DNA of 50,460 nucleotides from Puniceicoccaceae bacterium (GTDB lineage: Bacteria > Verrucomicrobiota > Verrucomicrobiia > Opitutales > Opitutaceae). This document shows, piece after piece, positions 44,007-50,460 of this stretch (within the stretch, counting starts at the first letter, position 1; each line of letters opens with the position of its first letter). Position numbers and translations under genes: made by a program. The notes below the pieces were generated by a model, which was given only the letters and a program-made list of their open reading frames with translations, was not told the DNA's origin and made no database searches. Location: positions 1 through 50,460 of the forward strand of contig REEB01000102.1 in assembly GCA_007695295.1 (NCBI GenBank), written 5' to 3'.

Positions 44007-44058
44007 GCCCGGCACAGACTTCGGCCGAACGCTTTCCGCCCCCGCCCTCCATCCCCTC
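44007..44058. repeat. Left 52-bp direct repeat flanking foldback element 1
   Basis: Identical over 52 bp to 44319-44370, beginning GCCCGGCACAGACTTCGG and ending CCCTCCATCCCCTC; the bases outside differ. The right copy ends exactly where the downstream ATG begins. Confidence 0.9.
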
Positions 44059-44318
44059 CCGAGTTCAACAGAACCTCCAATTGATTACGTAAGTCCTTGA
44101 TTACCAATGGAGAGATTGCCGGATCGGATGTCCCGCAGCCCATCCTAATCGTAATCCTGCTCGTAATCCTAATCGACGGATCGAACGCTGTTGACGGCAA
44201 TGACGTGGCATCGGGGTACGGCGCTGGACCTGCGGAATGACGGGAAGAGGGATTACGATTACGAGCAGGATTACGACTACGGGCTTGGACAGGGTGACCC
44301 AATGTTGCACTCAGGAGA
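44059..44318. mobile_element. Foldback (MITE-like) element, copy 1
   Basis: A 260-bp segment flanked by 52-bp direct repeats, similar along its length to 49131-49378. Its ends are imperfect inverted repeats (GAGTTCAACAG left; complement of the right end TGAGTGCAAC). The interior holds inverted blocks made of CCTAATCGTAATCC-type and GGATTACGATTACG-type units. Shared core TCGGGGTACGGCGC is near 44211. No transposase; presumably non-autonomous. It has about 18 bp that copy 2 lacks near 44111-44130. Confidence 0.75.
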
Positions 44319-44370
44319 GCCCGGCACAGACTTCGGCCGAACGCTTTCCGCCCCCGCCCTCCATCCCCTC
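44319..44370. repeat. Right 52-bp direct repeat, immediately upstream of the next start codon
   Basis: Exact copy of 44007-44058. It forms the current 5' leader of the propeller gene at 44371, so the insertion kept the immediate leader sequence of that gene intact. Confidence 0.9.
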
Positions 44371-45648
44371 ATGCCCGCCCCCGCCGATCTCGATCGCTGC
44401 TTTCCCCGCTACCGCGACTTTAATCCGGCCGTCCCGGTCTGGTGCCTCACCCCGGACTCCACCGGCTGGATCCATCGCTTTTTCGACACCAACCCAATCA
44501 GCCCCTCCGGTCGCTTCCTCGCCGTCTTTCGGCTGCCATTCGAAGACCGCCAGCCCAAGCCTGGCGAACCCGGCGAGGTCCACCTCGTCGATCTGCAGAC
44601 CGGATCCAGGCGGCGCCTCGCCGAAACCATCGGCTGGGAGCCCCAGCTTGGCGCCAATCTCAACTGGGGCGGCAGCGACGAAGCTCTCTTTTTCAACGAC
44701 GTCGATCCGGAATCCTGGACGCCGTTTTCCTGGATGCTCAATCCCCTCACCGGCCACCGCCAGCGCATGGAGGGTCCCGTTTACCATGCTTCCCCCGATG
44801 GTCGCTGGCTCGTCGCCGCCGATCCACGCCGCATGCGCAAGACCCAGCCCGGCTATGGCGTGCAGGTGCCGGACGAGGCCGTCCGCCAGCACCGCGGTGC
44901 CGTCTCCGATGACGGGTTTTATCTGACCGACACCGCCACAGGAAAAACCCGGCTCGCCTGGTCGTTCCAAGACTTGCTCGCGCGAGCCGATCCTCCGGTG
45001 GTCATCGAAACACCCGATCGGATGGAGGTTTGCGCCTTCCACAGCAAATTCAGCCCCGGCGGCGACCGGCTCATGCTCAGCCTGCGGTGGTTTCCCGCCC
45101 TAGAGCAGCCGCGTTGGAATCTCTTCGCGACCGATCCGAAAGCGGTGCGTTTTGCCTGGGTCACGGTGAGGCTCGAAGGTGGACCCGTCCATTGCGTCGT
45201 CGGCCCTGAGCAGTGGATCAAAGGCGGCCACCACGCCACCTGGTATCCCGACGGGAAACGCATTTCCATGAACCTCAACCTCCACGGCGACGGCCTGCGG
45301 TTTGTTTCAGTGTGTCCGGATGGCTCGGATCTGAGCGTCATGGTCGACGGTCTTCCCGGCTCCGGCCACCCCTCACTCCATCCTTCCGGCCGTCATCTCC
45401 TCACCGATACCTATACCTTCGAACCAACCGCCTTCGGTGATGGCACCATCCCCCTCCGCTGGATCGACTTGGCCAGCGGCGGGGAACGTACCCTGGTGCG
45501 AATCAACACCGCGCAACCCTGCTCCGACGGGGTCCTCCGGGTCGACCCCCATCCCGCCTGGGATCGCTCCGGCCGCTTCGTGACCTTCAACGCCCATGCC
45601 GACGGCGCACGGCGGGTCTACCTCGCTGACCTCGCCACCGTCCTCTGA
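44371..45648 (+). CDS. TolB-like beta-propeller protein, oligogalacturonide-lyase-like
   Basis: 425 residues from ATG 44371 (MPAPADLDRCFPRYRDF). An in-frame extension to 44191 runs through the foldback element and is rejected. Repeated blade motifs such as ISPSGRFLAVFRLPF, ASPDGRWLVAADPRR, FSPGGDRLMLSLRWF, WYPDGKRISMNLNLHGDG and LHPSGRHLLTDTY resemble TolB/WD40-type and PL22 oligogalacturonide lyase propellers. His in HHATWYPDG and HPSGRHLLTDTY could be catalytic or metal-binding, but activity is not proven. No signal peptide, so cytoplasmic, consistent with action on an imported oligosaccharide. It precedes the ABC importer genes by 122 bp. Confidence 0.75.
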   Translation: MPAPADLDRCFPRYRDFNPAVPVWCLTPDSTGWIHRFFDTNPISPSGRFLAVFRLPFEDRQPKPGEPGEVHLVDLQTGSRRRLAETIGWEPQLGANLNWGGSDEALFFNDVDPESWTPFSWMLNPLTGHRQRMEGPVYHASPDGRWLVAADPRRMRKTQPGYGVQVPDEAVRQHRGAVSDDGFYLTDTATGKTRLAWSFQDLLARADPPVVIETPDRMEVCAFHSKFSPGGDRLMLSLRWFPALEQPRWNLFATDPKAVRFAWVTVRLEGGPVHCVVGPEQWIKGGHHATWYPDGKRISMNLNLHGDGLRFVSVCPDGSDLSVMVDGLPGSGHPSLHPSGRHLLTDTYTFEPTAFGDGTIPLRWIDLASGGERTLVRINTAQPCSDGVLRVDPHPAWDRSGRFVTFNAHADGARRVYLADLATVL

Positions 45649-45770
45649 GCGCCTTTCGCTGACGCGGCTGAGAGCGGCACCGGTCTTCAGTCCGAAATTA
45701 CCGATAAACCGCCGCCGCTCCAAAACCGCTTGTCTCCACGGGTTGCGCTCAGCAAGGTGGCAGTTTCTCC

Positions 45771-47141
45771 ATGATTTCCGACTTCCCCTACGGAAAAGCC
45801 CCTTTCTGGATTCTGGTCGCCGCCATCCTCTCCGGCCTCGTGGTCTGGGGGGCCTCCTACCTCCAGACCCACGAGGAGCCCGACCTCATCTTCGCCACCT
45901 TCGCCCAGAACCACTACGAGGTTTACCGCGAGGTCATCCCGGAGTTTGAAAAAAAACATGGCGTCCGGGTCCAGCTCCAGCTCGTCTCCATCCGCGCCCT
46001 GCAAAGCCGCCTCCAGTCCGCCCTTCTCGCCGGGACCGACGTCCCCGACTTGGTCGAACTCGTCAATCCCTCCATGGGCTACTTCACCCAAGGGCCGCTC
46101 GAGGATGTCGGCTTCATTGACCTCACCGACCGCATTTTCGCCGAAGGACTCGACCAGCGCATGGTCTGGGAGCGCTTCAGCATCTGGTCCTCCCGCGAGC
46201 GCATCTTCGCCATCCCCCACGATGTCCACCCCATGGGCTTGGTCTACCGGCGCGACATCGTGGAGTCCCTCGGCATCGATGTGGACGCGATCGAGACCTG
46301 GGACGACTTCCTCGAAGCCGCCCACATCATCACCCGGGATCTCACCGGCAACGGCGTCATCGACCGCTATGCCCTCGACCTTCCTTCGGACGGCAACTGG
46401 GCCCTGCGCGGGCTGCTCATGCAGCAGGACATCCAGATGTTTGACCAGCAGGGGCGTCTCACCTTCAACCAGCCCGCCACCATCGACACCATCATCTGGT
46501 ACCTGCGCGCCTCGCGCGGTCCCGACCGAATTTCCTTCCCCGCCGGCTGGGGGCAGACCTTCAGCCGGGCCTTCAACGACGGGCTCGTCGTCTTTGTCTT
46601 CACGCCGGACTGGCGCACCCGGCAGTACCAGATGGACCTTCCCGGCCTGCACGGCAAACTCGCCTTCATGCCGCTGCCCGCGTGGGAGCCGGGCGGCCGC
46701 CGCACGAGCGTCTGGGGCGGCACCGGCCTCGCCATCACCCGCCAGACCGCCAGGCCGGAGCTGGCTTGGGAGCTGGCCAAGTTCCTCTACCTCGACGTCG
46801 AGACCGCGGGAGCGTTTTTCCTCCAGTCCAACATCGTCCCGCCCTTCAAGGAAGCCTGGGAGGAGCCCGAGTTCGACGAGCCCAATCCCTACTACAGCAA
46901 CCAGCGGCTGGGACGAATTCTCGTCGATCTCGCCCGCCAAGCCCCCCCGGAATACGTCACCGCCTACACCGAGCTCACCCACTCGAAGTTTTCCGAGGTC
47001 TTCCTCAACGCCGCCCTCCACTTCGACCGCCGGGGCGAAACCGGCCTCCGCGAGTACATCCAGGAGGAGCTCGACAAAGCCCAAGCTTACCTCGAGCGGA
47101 TCATGGCCCGCAATGTCTTCCTCTTCGAGCCCGCCCAATGA
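45771..47141 (+). CDS. ABC transporter extracellular solute-binding protein (sugar type)
   Basis: 456 residues. An N-terminal membrane segment (PFWILVAAILSGLVVWGA) with no lipobox suggests a membrane-anchored binding protein. The family-1 SBP body has YREVIPEFEKKHGVRVQLQLVS, ALLAGTDVPDLVELVNPSMG, FAIPHDVHPMGLVYRRDIVESLGI, TWDDFLEAAHIIT and SVWGGTGLAITRQTARPELAWELAKFL. It binds an oligo- or monosaccharide for the permeases encoded next. The stop overlaps the first permease start (ATGA). Confidence 0.92.
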   Translation: MISDFPYGKAPFWILVAAILSGLVVWGASYLQTHEEPDLIFATFAQNHYEVYREVIPEFEKKHGVRVQLQLVSIRALQSRLQSALLAGTDVPDLVELVNPSMGYFTQGPLEDVGFIDLTDRIFAEGLDQRMVWERFSIWSSRERIFAIPHDVHPMGLVYRRDIVESLGIDVDAIETWDDFLEAAHIITRDLTGNGVIDRYALDLPSDGNWALRGLLMQQDIQMFDQQGRLTFNQPATIDTIIWYLRASRGPDRISFPAGWGQTFSRAFNDGLVVFVFTPDWRTRQYQMDLPGLHGKLAFMPLPAWEPGGRRTSVWGGTGLAITRQTARPELAWELAKFLYLDVETAGAFFLQSNIVPPFKEAWEEPEFDEPNPYYSNQRLGRILVDLARQAPPEYVTAYTELTHSKFSEVFLNAALHFDRRGETGLREYIQEELDKAQAYLERIMARNVFLFEPAQ

Positions 47142-48103
47142 ACCCCGCCCCGCCGACCCAGACCGCCGCCGCCACCGCGGCCGGAGTTCCGGCCCGGCTC
47201 CCCGGCCCGCCGCCCCGCAAACGCTTCCAGCGCACCTGGATGGCCGCCTACTTCTTCCTCATCCCCTACATCCTCCTCACACTCGTCTTTTTCCTGTATC
47301 CGTTTTTTAACGCCGTCGTTCTGGCCTTTCACCAGACCAACGGGCCCTACACCCGCGTCTTCGTCGGCTGGGCCAACTTCGCTTTCGTCCTCGGCGACCC
47401 CACCTTCTACCTCGCCCTCAAAAACACCGCCATCTTCGCGGTCTTCTCCGTCTTTCTTCAACTGCCGCTTTCCCTCGGCCTTGCCCTCCTCCTCAACCAG
47501 GGCGCCGACAAGATCAAGGGCTTCTTCCGCCTCGCCATCTTCTCCCCGCACCTCGTCGGCCAGATCTTCGTCGGCGTGCTCTTCAGCGTGCTTTTCGTGC
47601 CGCGCTACGGGCTCGTCAACCGCTTCCTCCATGAGCTGCTTGGCTGGGGACTGGAAAACCGCTGGCTGGAAAATCCCGCCCTCGTCATGCCCGCCATCAT
47701 CCTCACCGCCCTCTGGATGTACGTCGGCTTCAACATGATCTACTTCCTCGCCGCCCTCCAGAATGTCGACCAGAACCTCCGCGAGGCCGCCATGATCGAT
47801 GGAGCCGGCCCCTGGCAGCGCTTTCTCAATGTCACCCTGCCCGCGATCAAGCCGGTCGCCACTTTCGTCGTGGTCATGAGCACGATCGGCTCCTTCCAGC
47901 TTTTTGAGCTGCCCTATGCGCTGCTCGACGGCTTCGGCCCGGCCAACTCCGGCCTCACCGTCGTCGGCTACCTCTACCAGTACGCCTTCAATACCGGCGA
48001 CCTCGGCACCGGGGCCACCGTCGGCTGGATTCTCGCCCTCGTCATTTTCATCGTCAGCCTCGTGCAGATCCGGATCAGCCAGTCCATGAAGGGGGAGACC
48101 TGA
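47138..48103 (+). CDS. ABC sugar transporter permease (MalF/UgpA-like)
   Basis: 321 residues from ATG 47138, overlapping the binding-protein stop. A Pro/Arg-rich N-terminus is followed by six membrane helices (first: AAYFFLIPYILLTLVFFLYPFF). The EAA loop REAAMIDGAGPWQRFLNVTLPAIKP (about residues 215-240) is the ATPase-docking motif. Forms the channel with the next gene product; the ATP-binding subunit (MsmK/UgpC type) is not encoded here and must be shared from elsewhere. Confidence 0.93.
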   Translation: MNPAPPTQTAAATAAGVPARLPGPPPRKRFQRTWMAAYFFLIPYILLTLVFFLYPFFNAVVLAFHQTNGPYTRVFVGWANFAFVLGDPTFYLALKNTAIFAVFSVFLQLPLSLGLALLLNQGADKIKGFFRLAIFSPHLVGQIFVGVLFSVLFVPRYGLVNRFLHELLGWGLENRWLENPALVMPAIILTALWMYVGFNMIYFLAALQNVDQNLREAAMIDGAGPWQRFLNVTLPAIKPVATFVVVMSTIGSFQLFELPYALLDGFGPANSGLTVVGYLYQYAFNTGDLGTGATVGWILALVIFIVSLVQIRISQSMKGET

Positions 48104-48107
48104 ACCG

Positions 48108-49037
48108 ATGAGCCCGCTCCACTTCACCCTCGGGCTGCTCGCCCTCATCTTCATCGGCCTCTTTCTGGTCAACCCGCGCCAACCGAGGCTTGCTTTAACC
48201 TACCTGCGCTACGTCCTGCTCTGCCTGGCCGCGGCCACCATCCTGACGCCTTTTGTCTGGCTCATCACCGCTTCTTTCAAATCCCCCGATGTGCTCATGC
48301 AGTACGTCTTCCTCCCGCCGCTCCCGGATATTAATTTCGACACCATCAACCTCGGCAACTTCCGCCGGCTCTTCGAGCCCGAGCCCACCCCGCAGGGCCA
48401 GGTCTACTTTTGGCAGTATATCTTCAACTCCCTCTTCCTCGCCAGCGCCACCACCGTCATCCAGCTCTTCTTCTGCTCCATGGGCGGGTATGCGCTCGCC
48501 AAATACAATTTTCCCGGCAAGACCGCCCTCATGCTCTTCATGCTCGGCTCGCTCATGATCCCCGGCATGATCCTGCTCGCCCCACTCTACGAAATGATCG
48601 TTCGTATCGGATTTGTCGATACTTACTGGGCCTTGCTACTTCCCGGCGCGGTCACGGCCTTCGGCATGTTCCTTTTCCGCCAGGCCATCATCGTGGTGCC
48701 GGACGAACTGATCGAGGCCGGGCGGATCGACGGCTGCAGCGAGTTCAGCATCTACCTGCGGCTGGTCATGCCACTGGTCCGGCCGATGAGCGGCGCCTTC
48801 TGCCTCATCACTTTCCTCGCTTCGTGGAACAACTTCCTCGGCCCCCAGATTTTCATCCACACCCAGGCCAAGCTCACCCTCCCGGTCGTCCTCACCCAAT
48901 ACGTCGGCGTCTACACCCAGCAGTACGGAGTCTTCCTGGCCGGCACGCTGCTCGCCATCATCCCGCCGGCGATCCTTTTCTTCGCCCTCCAGCGCGAGTT
49001 CATCAGCGGGCTCACCAGCGGCGCCGTCAAGGGTTGA
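48108..49037 (+). CDS. ABC sugar transporter permease (MalG/UgpE-like)
   Basis: 309 residues, starting four bases after the stop of the first permease. An extra N-terminal membrane helix (HFTLGLLALIFIGLFLV) precedes the standard six (AAATILTPFVWLITASFK and following). The EAA loop is ELIEAGRIDGCSEFSIYLRLVMPLVRP, and the usual FLASWNNFLGP motif follows. Partner permease of the importer. No ATPase gene follows; instead the strand switches beyond the second foldback element. Confidence 0.93.
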   Translation: MSPLHFTLGLLALIFIGLFLVNPRQPRLALTYLRYVLLCLAAATILTPFVWLITASFKSPDVLMQYVFLPPLPDINFDTINLGNFRRLFEPEPTPQGQVYFWQYIFNSLFLASATTVIQLFFCSMGGYALAKYNFPGKTALMLFMLGSLMIPGMILLAPLYEMIVRIGFVDTYWALLLPGAVTAFGMFLFRQAIIVVPDELIEAGRIDGCSEFSIYLRLVMPLVRPMSGAFCLITFLASWNNFLGPQIFIHTQAKLTLPVVLTQYVGVYTQQYGVFLAGTLLAIIPPAILFFALQREFISGLTSGAVKG

Positions 49038-49093
49038 AACCCCATCCGGCCCGCCCGGACCGGTCCTCCGCCGTCTCACCGGGCCCGGTCATT

Positions 49094-49130
49094 TGTTCCG
49101 GCTTTCCTTCCAATCCGCGAAGCAGGAGTT
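49094..49130. repeat. Left direct repeat of element 2: duplicated 3' end of the kinase gene
   Basis: Identical over 37 bp to 49436-49472. Read on the minus strand it encodes NSCFADWKESRN and runs straight into a TGA, mimicking the kinase C-terminus. The adjoining 49047-49093 is an imperfect match to 49379-49435, so the full duplication is about 84-94 bp. Confidence 0.85.
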
Positions 49131-49378
49131 CCTGACTTCAACAGCACCTCCCATTGCGTACGTGAGTCTTTGGTGTCCCACGTCCCATCCTAATCGTAAT
49201 CCTGTTCGTAATCCTAATCGACTTATCGAGTGCTGGTGGCTGCAATGACGTATCATCGGGGTACGGCGCGGGACCTGCGGAAGAACGGGGAGTGGGAATA
49301 CGATTACGAGAAGGATTAGGATTACGATTACGAGAAGGGTTACAGGCTTGGGCAGGGTGTCCCACTGTTGCACTCAGG
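49131..49378. mobile_element. Foldback (MITE-like) element, copy 2
   Basis: About 248 bp, a diverged relative of 44059-44318. Inverted ends CCTGACTTCAACAG and (complement of right end) CCTGAGTGCAACAG match at 12 of 14 positions. The interior shows the same TAATCGTAATCC and GATTACGATTACG inverted blocks, here with an extra GATTAG/GATTAC unit on the right arm. No coding gene of its own is convincing. Confidence 0.75.
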
Positions 49379-49430
49379 CGGCCCGCCCGCCCGGTCCGGT
49401 TCTCCGGCGGCCTCATCGGCCCGCGGCCGC

Positions 49431-50460
49431 TCAGCTGTTCCGGCTTTCCTTCCAATCCGCGAAGCAGGAGTTGAGCACCGTCAGTGCCTCCGGAAGGGCC
49501 GCGGCATCCTCCTCCTCCGCCAGCCGGTACACTTCCCGGCAGGGTTCGAGCAATCCTTCCATACGCAGGGCGAGCACGGTGTTGGAAAGGTAGTGGGAGG
49601 TCTCGCGGATGCGCTCGTAGTCACGGTTGTCCAAGGCCTCGCTCATGTCGTTGAGCAACACCGGGATTTCGTCCAGCGCGAGGTAGATGAGGTCCTTGCC
49701 GATGATTTTCTCGGTCTCGGCGTCGACCGGGGTCGCGGCTCGTTCCTCCTCGCCATTAACGGTGGTGTCCCCGGCAAGGTCCGGGGCGGAAACGGCCGCC
49801 ACCTCAGGCTCCCCGCGGGCCAAGTCTCGCCGCCGCCGCACCACCAGGGGACTGGCCTGGATCGCCTCGACCAGGCTTTTGGAGAAAAAGGGCTTCCCGA
49901 GGAAGTCGTTGCATCCTGCATCCATCGCGCGCTGGACTTCCGTTTCGGATAGCGTCGCGGAAACGCCGATGATCCAAGGCTCGTCCGTCACGCCGGACTC
50001 GGCCCGGATGCGCGTCACCGCCTCGATGCCGTCCATCTCCGGCATCCGCAGATCCATCAGGATGAGGTCCACGCCCCGCCAGTTCGCCACCGCCTGAGCA
50101 CCGGAATCAACCAGACGCGCCCGGTAACCGAGAGCCTTCAGGTACGAATCAACCAAGGTGCGGATGTAGGGGTTGTCGTCCGCCACCATAATCTGCAAGG
50201 GCAGGATCGATGCCAGCTCCACCCCGAAACCTTCCGGTTCCTGCTCGCCCGAAGCAGCTGAGACCTCTGTCGCAGGCGGGGACATCTCACCGTCCATCAG
50301 GGGCAGGATCAGCTCCACCCGGAATTCCGTGCCTTCGCCCGGCTCGCTGGAAACGCCGATGGATCCATTCATCAATTCGCAGAGGCGCTTTACAATGGCC
50401 AGACCCAGCCCAGCCCCTTCCCGCGGGAAATGGACCGACCGACCGATCTGGGTGAAGGGC
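49431..50460 (-). CDS. Hybrid sensor histidine kinase, C-terminal part (N-terminus beyond window)
   Basis: At least 343 codons open to the right edge. In order: the end of a HATPase_c domain (GLGLAIVKRLCELMNGSIGV, then PGEGTEFRVELIL), a receiver domain (LQIMVADDNPYIRTLVDSYLKALGY; phospho-acceptor Asp in LILMDLRMPEMDG; GKPF near its end), an acidic linker, and a C-terminal helical bundle with RETSHYLSNTVLALRMEGL, which fits an Hpt domain with phospho-accepting His. This gives the last three steps of a multistep phosphorelay on one chain. The input and DHp domains lie outside the window. Its 3' end has been duplicated by the adjacent foldback element. Confidence 0.92.
   Translation of the reverse strand, partial: PFTQIGRSVHFPREGAGLGLAIVKRLCELMNGSIGVSSEPGEGTEFRVELILPLMDGEMSPPATEVSAASGEQEPEGFGVELASILPLQIMVADDNPYIRTLVDSYLKALGYRARLVDSGAQAVANWRGVDLILMDLRMPEMDGIEAVTRIRAESGVTDEPWIIGVSATLSETEVQRAMDAGCNDFLGKPFFSKSLVEAIQASPLVVRRRRDLARGEPEVAAVSAPDLAGDTTVNGEEERAATPVDAETEKIIGKDLIYLALDEIPVLLNDMSEALDNRDYERIRETSHYLSNTVLALRMEGLLEPCREVYRLAEEEDAAALPEALTVLNSCFADWKESRNS
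49436..49472. repeat. Right direct repeat of element 2, inside the kinase gene end
   Basis: Identical to 49094-49130; includes the last codons of the kinase gene. The imperfect extension begins at 49379, directly after the element. Confidence 0.85.

Follow-up and report, generated by a model that had tools for sequence, protein, structure and literature searches.

A dispersed family of hairpin repeats in a Puniceicoccaceae genome, probably emptied copies of a mobile element with a four-helix-bundle gene

Some 40 hairpin repeats scattered through the genome of a Puniceicoccaceae bacterium are quite probably non-autonomous copies, with internal deletions, of a small mobile element in which a four-helix-bundle gene was once present. 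Two of these repeats, referred to below as elements 1 and 2, lie in the window, i.e., the whole stretch of 50,460 nucleotides that was analysed. What is new here is the presence of long direct repeats around dispersed copies, far above the level reached by controls.

The two elements of the window

An earlier note, made from the letters of the window alone, had described two related copies with shared inverted ends, a conserved core and GATTA-type arms, and without a transposase, a description that stands in every part. In a genome search the two elements proved 79% identical over 205 nt (E 8e-49); they have in common inverted ends of the CCTGAGTTCAACA class and the core, both carry arms of TAATC/GATTA repeats, and no transposase is found inside either (Table 1). 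Both are located between protein genes. The 52-bp repeats around element 1 are flush with both of its ends. To the left of element 2 lies a fossil duplicate of the 3′ end of the convergent response-regulator/kinase gene on the other side of the element; the duplicate encodes NSCFADWKESRN on the minus strand, the peptide in which that gene itself ends. The earlier note had missed these flanking direct repeats, the nature of the core as the 3′ end of a gene, and the existence of about 40 copies, some of them with gene remnants.

Table 1. Coordinates of the two window elements, their parts and their flanking repeats
Feature	Positions	Strand	Remarks
Element 1, probably an emptied four-helix-bundle hairpin element	44059..44318	+	member of a family of about 40 copies
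Inverted ends of element 1	44058-44070 / 44303-44315		
Left arm of element 1, TAATCGTAATCC repeats	44142..44175	+	93% complementary to right arm over 29 nt
Conserved core CATCGGGGTACGGCGC of element 1	44209..44224	+	remnant of the 3′ end of the four-helix-bundle frame (..EESSGYGAG..)
Right arm of element 1, GATTACGATTACGAG..	44249..44281	+	inverted repeat with left arm
52-bp direct repeat, left copy, flanking element 1	44007..44058	+	like a target-site duplication; 52/52 identical to 44319-44370
52-bp direct repeat, right copy, flanking element 1	44319..44370	+	
Element 2, same family as element 1	49131..49378	+	left part 28 nt shorter, right arm longer
Left arm of element 2	49187..49220	+	inverted repeat
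Conserved core CATCGGGGTACGGCGC of element 2	49254..49269	+	remnant of the gene 3′ end
Right arm of element 2, GATTA hexamers	49291..49343	+	
Direct repeat left of element 2	49049..49130	+	73/88 identical (83%) to 49385-49472
Direct repeat right of element 2	49385..49472	+	includes the genuine 3′ end of the gene 49431-50375 (minus strand)

Copy number and distribution

A search of the whole genome, available as a 4.6-Mb assembly of 278 contigs, recovered at least about 40 copies at 71-89% identity; that there might be many had been surmised in the earlier note from the occurrence of two copies within five kilobases. The count is a lower bound, the number of candidates having been limited and many copies being situated at contig ends. 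The elements measure 244-600 bp, and no Rfam family could be assigned to them. In a set of 95 genomes (this one and its relatives), the only DNA match outside this genome was a single 45-nt fragment in G048, so that the family is a lineage-specific expansion and not a conserved regulatory element; neither a lack of further copies nor conservation at orthologous places, which the earlier note had named as grounds for refutation, was seen. Among the short copies two kinds of deletion are met repeatedly, one joining GACTGCAATGAC to GAATCATC and the other retaining CTTCTGCCAGCCGCATCGATGAAGAATCATC, and since each is present in several dispersed copies, the gutted copies must themselves have moved and multiplied. 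Of the 12 copies that could be scored, seven have convergent genes on either side and none has divergent ones; orientation bias relative to the neighbours is uninformative in this genome, because most copies have convergent neighbours.

A REP-like palindrome, GGGAGCANNNTGCTCCC, separate from the elements, occurs at 50 sites in this genome (e.g., C15:32263-32309, C22:404-451, C109:53829-53876, C265:35958 and C272:2814-2862). About six of these sites show it attached to an element copy at the left end, through one and the same junction (..GCTACTTTC|CTGAG). It often stands between two copies of the element there, which looks as though a composite of element, palindrome and element had moved.

That the transcript would fold into a long hairpin, as had also been proposed, is supported for copy 1, where the predicted RNA fold is significant (z -3.6), and not for copy 2 (z -0.9). 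Over 17 copies the folding z averages -3.2, with 12 values below -2. Covariation is weak, compensatory change being found at 3 of 37 consensus pairs only. Together with the non-significant fold of copy 2, this indicates that the hairpin was inherited from the parent and is slowly decaying here, rather than being clearly maintained by selection.

Remnants of a four-helix-bundle gene

The earlier note suspected that the elements were emptied derivatives of an element carrying an S23-like four-helix-bundle gene, and proposed looking for longer versions with an open reading frame. Three longer copies exist (L017, L019 and L024), in which decayed frames, such as MKTHINHEKLDGCQDAIGCVSRVDEVLAGIPKNPAVYHQLDRAS, are found between the arms. 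An intact four-helix-bundle protein from another genome, G277 (L079), used as an independent tblastn query, matches these three copies with E-values of 4e-18, 9e-11 and 8e-10. This protein belongs to PF05635, the family of the 23S rRNA intervening-sequence protein (E 1e-21), to which intact proteins of related elements are also assigned (E 4e-17 to 1e-21). The conserved core of the short copies corresponds to the end of the four-helix-bundle frame (..SRIDEESSGYGAG..); in the longer copies the segment reads HEESSGYG or HEESSGHGAG and can be aligned to the C-terminal end of the G277 protein. The suspicion thus proved largely well founded, all the more so as full-length and deleted copies occur together in a second genome, G432 (see below). 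No intact four-helix-bundle gene was found in the present genome by a PF05635 model search, the model failing to match because the reading frames are broken, and the family is therefore probably dead or inactive here.

Intact genes in relatives and other phyla

Genes of PF05635 are common in the order and class, 62 of the 95 genomes carrying between 1 and 15. Many of them lie between inverted arrays of short tandem repeats, the sequence of which varies by element (AAAGGCAC, AGTCAGG and GGGTTCT types). The subfamily closest to the window elements (..HEKL..) has GATTA/TAATC hexamers; its 74 loci come from Verrucomicrobiota, Planctomycetota, Lentisphaerota, SAR324, Desulfococcaceae and others, and at 55 of them TAATC precedes the start codon and GATTA follows the stop. 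Intact genes of this subfamily thus stand between hexamer arms of the same kind in many genomes, in agreement with the statement in the earlier note that similar GATTACG runs occur near S23-like genes in other bacteria. The contrast between own and swapped left and right arms is weak, since the hexamer is common to all members of the subfamily. Orientation bias is strong at gene-bearing loci of the subfamily: in 47 of 51 cases the gene downstream shares the strand of the bundle gene, as do both neighbours in 38 of 51, which places the genes inside operons. No rRNA match was obtained in 20 loci searched with their flanks.

Four-helix-bundle genes of other subfamilies (L031-L060) also lie between inverted arrays of tandem repeats of about 7-8 nt, with quite different sequences. 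They are often found at the same operon junctions in different genera (rfbB-rfbA, pheS-pheT, livK-livH and cysD-cysN).

Long direct repeats flank the elements

Direct repeats scoring at least as high as the best of 342 swapped flank pairs (score 18) flank 12 of the 19 copies with two ends, a score that none of 400 random window positions reaches. If the length is taken from the first base of the left copy up to the element, these repeats span 22-219 bp; in 11 of the 12 cases the right copy directly adjoins the element. At seven of the 19 two-ended copies, a long direct repeat is absent. The flanking repeats look like very long and variable target-site duplications, unlike those of ordinary transposons. 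This inference of insertion was made for the present genome without empty sites from congeners.

Gene-bearing elements can be flanked in the same manner. The repeat of 40 bp (39/40 identical) around L237 adjoins both arms without a gap. It covers the upstream gene's stop codon (after ..GMKG) as well as the beginning of the downstream one (MKIVCAASVLAGE..), so that both genes remain whole. A direct repeat of 46 bp surrounds L084. In a member of the Planctomycetaceae (L255, SYJV01000117.1), one gene end (..GRDYRLTDVYGSVVKEIL) is present in three copies with successive elements in between, which suggests an insertion hot spot that was hit repeatedly. Most older gene-bearing loci are without a long direct repeat, and we infer that this fits decay of the spare copy.

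A target-element-target-element arrangement is found at L220, and likewise at a contig end of the present genome (L003, C67:1-490), where tandem duplication or the assembly may be responsible for it.

A parallel expansion in another family of the class

G432 (contigs CAMBEJ01), from another family of the same class, contains six near-full-length gene-bearing copies, at least two of them with an open frame, and more than 30 copies with a mid-gene deletion that has two recurring breakpoints. Its four-helix-bundle homologue belongs to TIGR02436, with a match to the solved S23p structure 2gsc. Although the record bears the title 'Akkermansia muciniphila', a different family of the class is where it is placed, so the title may be a misassignment. 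Two congeners, G446 and G447, have one similar full-length copy (86%) and a few fragments. G432 is an independent case of the same process and a younger expansion; given families of gutted elements in both genomes, such expansion has taken place at least twice.

A 20-bp inverted repeat, GTGCGCATCTCAGATTTTTC, forms the ends of the G432 copies; flush direct repeats of 8-11 bp flank about 12 of the 27 copies with this end. The end sequence occurs 150 times, and the sites examined all belong to this element except one that is truncated or chimeric. At one site (L297, C190:9300), the left end and arm are followed by an unrelated interior up to the contig end, representing either a truncated copy or a different cargo. 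Orientation bias relative to neighbouring genes is absent among the G432 copies. When ten joined flanks were compared with the two congeners in search of empty sites, only one-sided matches were obtained.

How may the elements have spread?

The parent element would have consisted of an inverted end, a hexamer arm (TAATCG..), the S23/IVP gene, a complementary arm (GATTAC..) and a second inverted end. It may have been copied around the genome, and deletion derivatives reduced to the ends, the arms and the final codons of the gene would have kept multiplying, moved in trans as we infer. The direct repeats are inferred to be target-site duplications, which could be made at insertion by two widely staggered nicks; the duplication would leave the ends of the neighbouring genes whole and thus let the element fit between tightly packed genes and into operons. 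The most speculative step, which we put forward only tentatively, is that the bundle protein could act in the manner of Avd and hand the hairpin RNA to a reverse transcriptase from another element.

Cut-and-paste transposases make short duplications of near-fixed length, and such duplications fit G432 and not the present genome, the long and variable duplications of which are more readily accounted for by target-primed reverse transcription or by repair. A homology of PF05635 proteins to Avd has been reported, the latter being essential for the retrohoming of diversity-generating retroelements (PMC10053308), and in view of this homology an RNA route that borrows its reverse transcriptase is an attractive idea. 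G432 has six reverse transcriptases; the only RVT_1 match in the present genome is a truncated fragment of 77 aa with one TGA (C98:307-534), and the flanks of the window copies contain no reverse-transcriptase or template/variable-repeat genes. An autonomous transposon with the same ends was found neither among 33 end sites of this genome nor among about 20 further end sites of G432 (drawn from 100 of the 150 sites).

Of the possible routes, the RNA-mediated one is favoured, while remaining a tentative choice. Insertion by recombination or replication, with the hairpin DNA being taken up in the course of repair or at stalled forks and the repair event leaving the long repeats behind, must be called unlikely without being dismissed: the great length and variability of the repeats, the tandem arrangements at L003, L220 and L255, and arms that are perfect substrates for slippage all speak for it, but the flush, complete ends of most copies and the dispersal of about 40 copies, among which subtypes recur, speak for a process that is end-specific. 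A further possibility is a cut-and-paste transposase acting in trans on the inverted ends, which would make the elements ordinary MITEs, the bundle gene a passenger and the long repeats the product of later events. Both families have inverted ends, trans-mobilised MITEs with repeats are known, e.g., BrickBuilt (PMC4596501), and G432 resembles them in its 20-bp inverted ends and short, exact, flush duplications, as well as lacking orientation bias; its ends and duplications point to a transposase in trans, not to RNA, and are evidence against the explanation that we prefer. Against the latter also stand the mere remnant of a reverse transcriptase in the present genome, the weak covariation in the arms, and the lack of long direct repeats at seven of the 19 two-ended copies and at most older gene-bearing loci. 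We nevertheless consider the transposase reading rather doubtful, as the repeats in the window genome are variable in length, far longer and flush with the element, long repeats are also present around gene-bearing elements in other phyla, and no longer, transposase-bearing element was encountered in either genome among the end sites examined.

It appears very improbable that the elements are fixed hairpins with a regulatory or terminator function for which gene ends are under selection. Their hairpin potential and the predominance of convergent over divergent gene pairs around them would agree with such a role; however, essentially no DNA matches exist in the 95 related genomes, gene remnants and target duplications have no place in it, and covariation is weak. 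Returning to the RNA-mediated route, a wider reading, which at present we regard as possible and little more, is that of a transposase-free class of elements combining a hairpin RNA with an Avd-like protein, inserted by a borrowed reverse transcriptase with long duplications that spare both neighbouring genes; the intervening sequences (IVS) of 23S rRNA would then be members that landed in 23S genes.

Comparison with known systems

REP sequences are palindromes of 20-40 bp spread by Y1 (RAYT) transposases. The window family resembles them as dispersed, palindromic, intergenic repeats, and a separate REP-like palindrome is joined to some copies, but the elements are ten times longer and built from a gene-bearing element; judged on size (244-600 bp) and content (a four-helix-bundle remnant), membership in REP/RAYT is rejected. 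Diversity-generating retroelements are connected to the family through the reported homology of Avd to PF05635, yet the window elements have no reverse transcriptase, template repeat or variable repeat.

MITEs such as Correia and the BrickBuilt elements of Porphyromonas gingivalis (PMC10969869, PMC4596501) are, like the window family, short, non-autonomous, intergenic, multicopy and hairpin-forming with inverted ends, and BrickBuilt also carries tandem repeats. The window family thus meets the definition of a MITE in being short and multicopy, with inverted ends and no transposase, whereas a short duplication of near-fixed length is seen in G432 and not here, where repeats of 22-219 bp occur and the parent gene encodes a four-helix-bundle protein instead of a transposase.

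The IVS of 23S rRNA with an S23p frame, e.g., in Coxiella and Leptospira, have been known for more than 25 years, their arrival there being unexplained (PMC4990558); in the Coxiella IVS, tandem heptamers (GACAGAT) precede the S23p start and the gene is being lost (PMC4990558). As in the window family, complementary ends form a long stem, and the loop holds a PF05635 gene, decayed here and intact in related elements. Of the features that define an IVS, the gene in the loop and the complementary termini are therefore present and the location in 23S rRNA is not: the window elements lie between protein genes, in about 40 copies, without an intact gene and with long direct repeats. We found no report of dispersed S23/IVP hairpin elements outside rRNA in the literature, coverage of which was partial, with most subscription journals missing.

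The 'four helix bundle protein' family TIGR02436 is one of the commonest uncharacterised protein families of bacteria, and the present analysis gives it a role to test. A long duplication that restores both gene ends is a possible reason why its genes sit in operons without breaking them. The gene-in-hairpin design of the 23S IVS is thus found dispersed outside rRNA, in many copies and with insertion scars, and this points to genomes in which its mobility can be studied.
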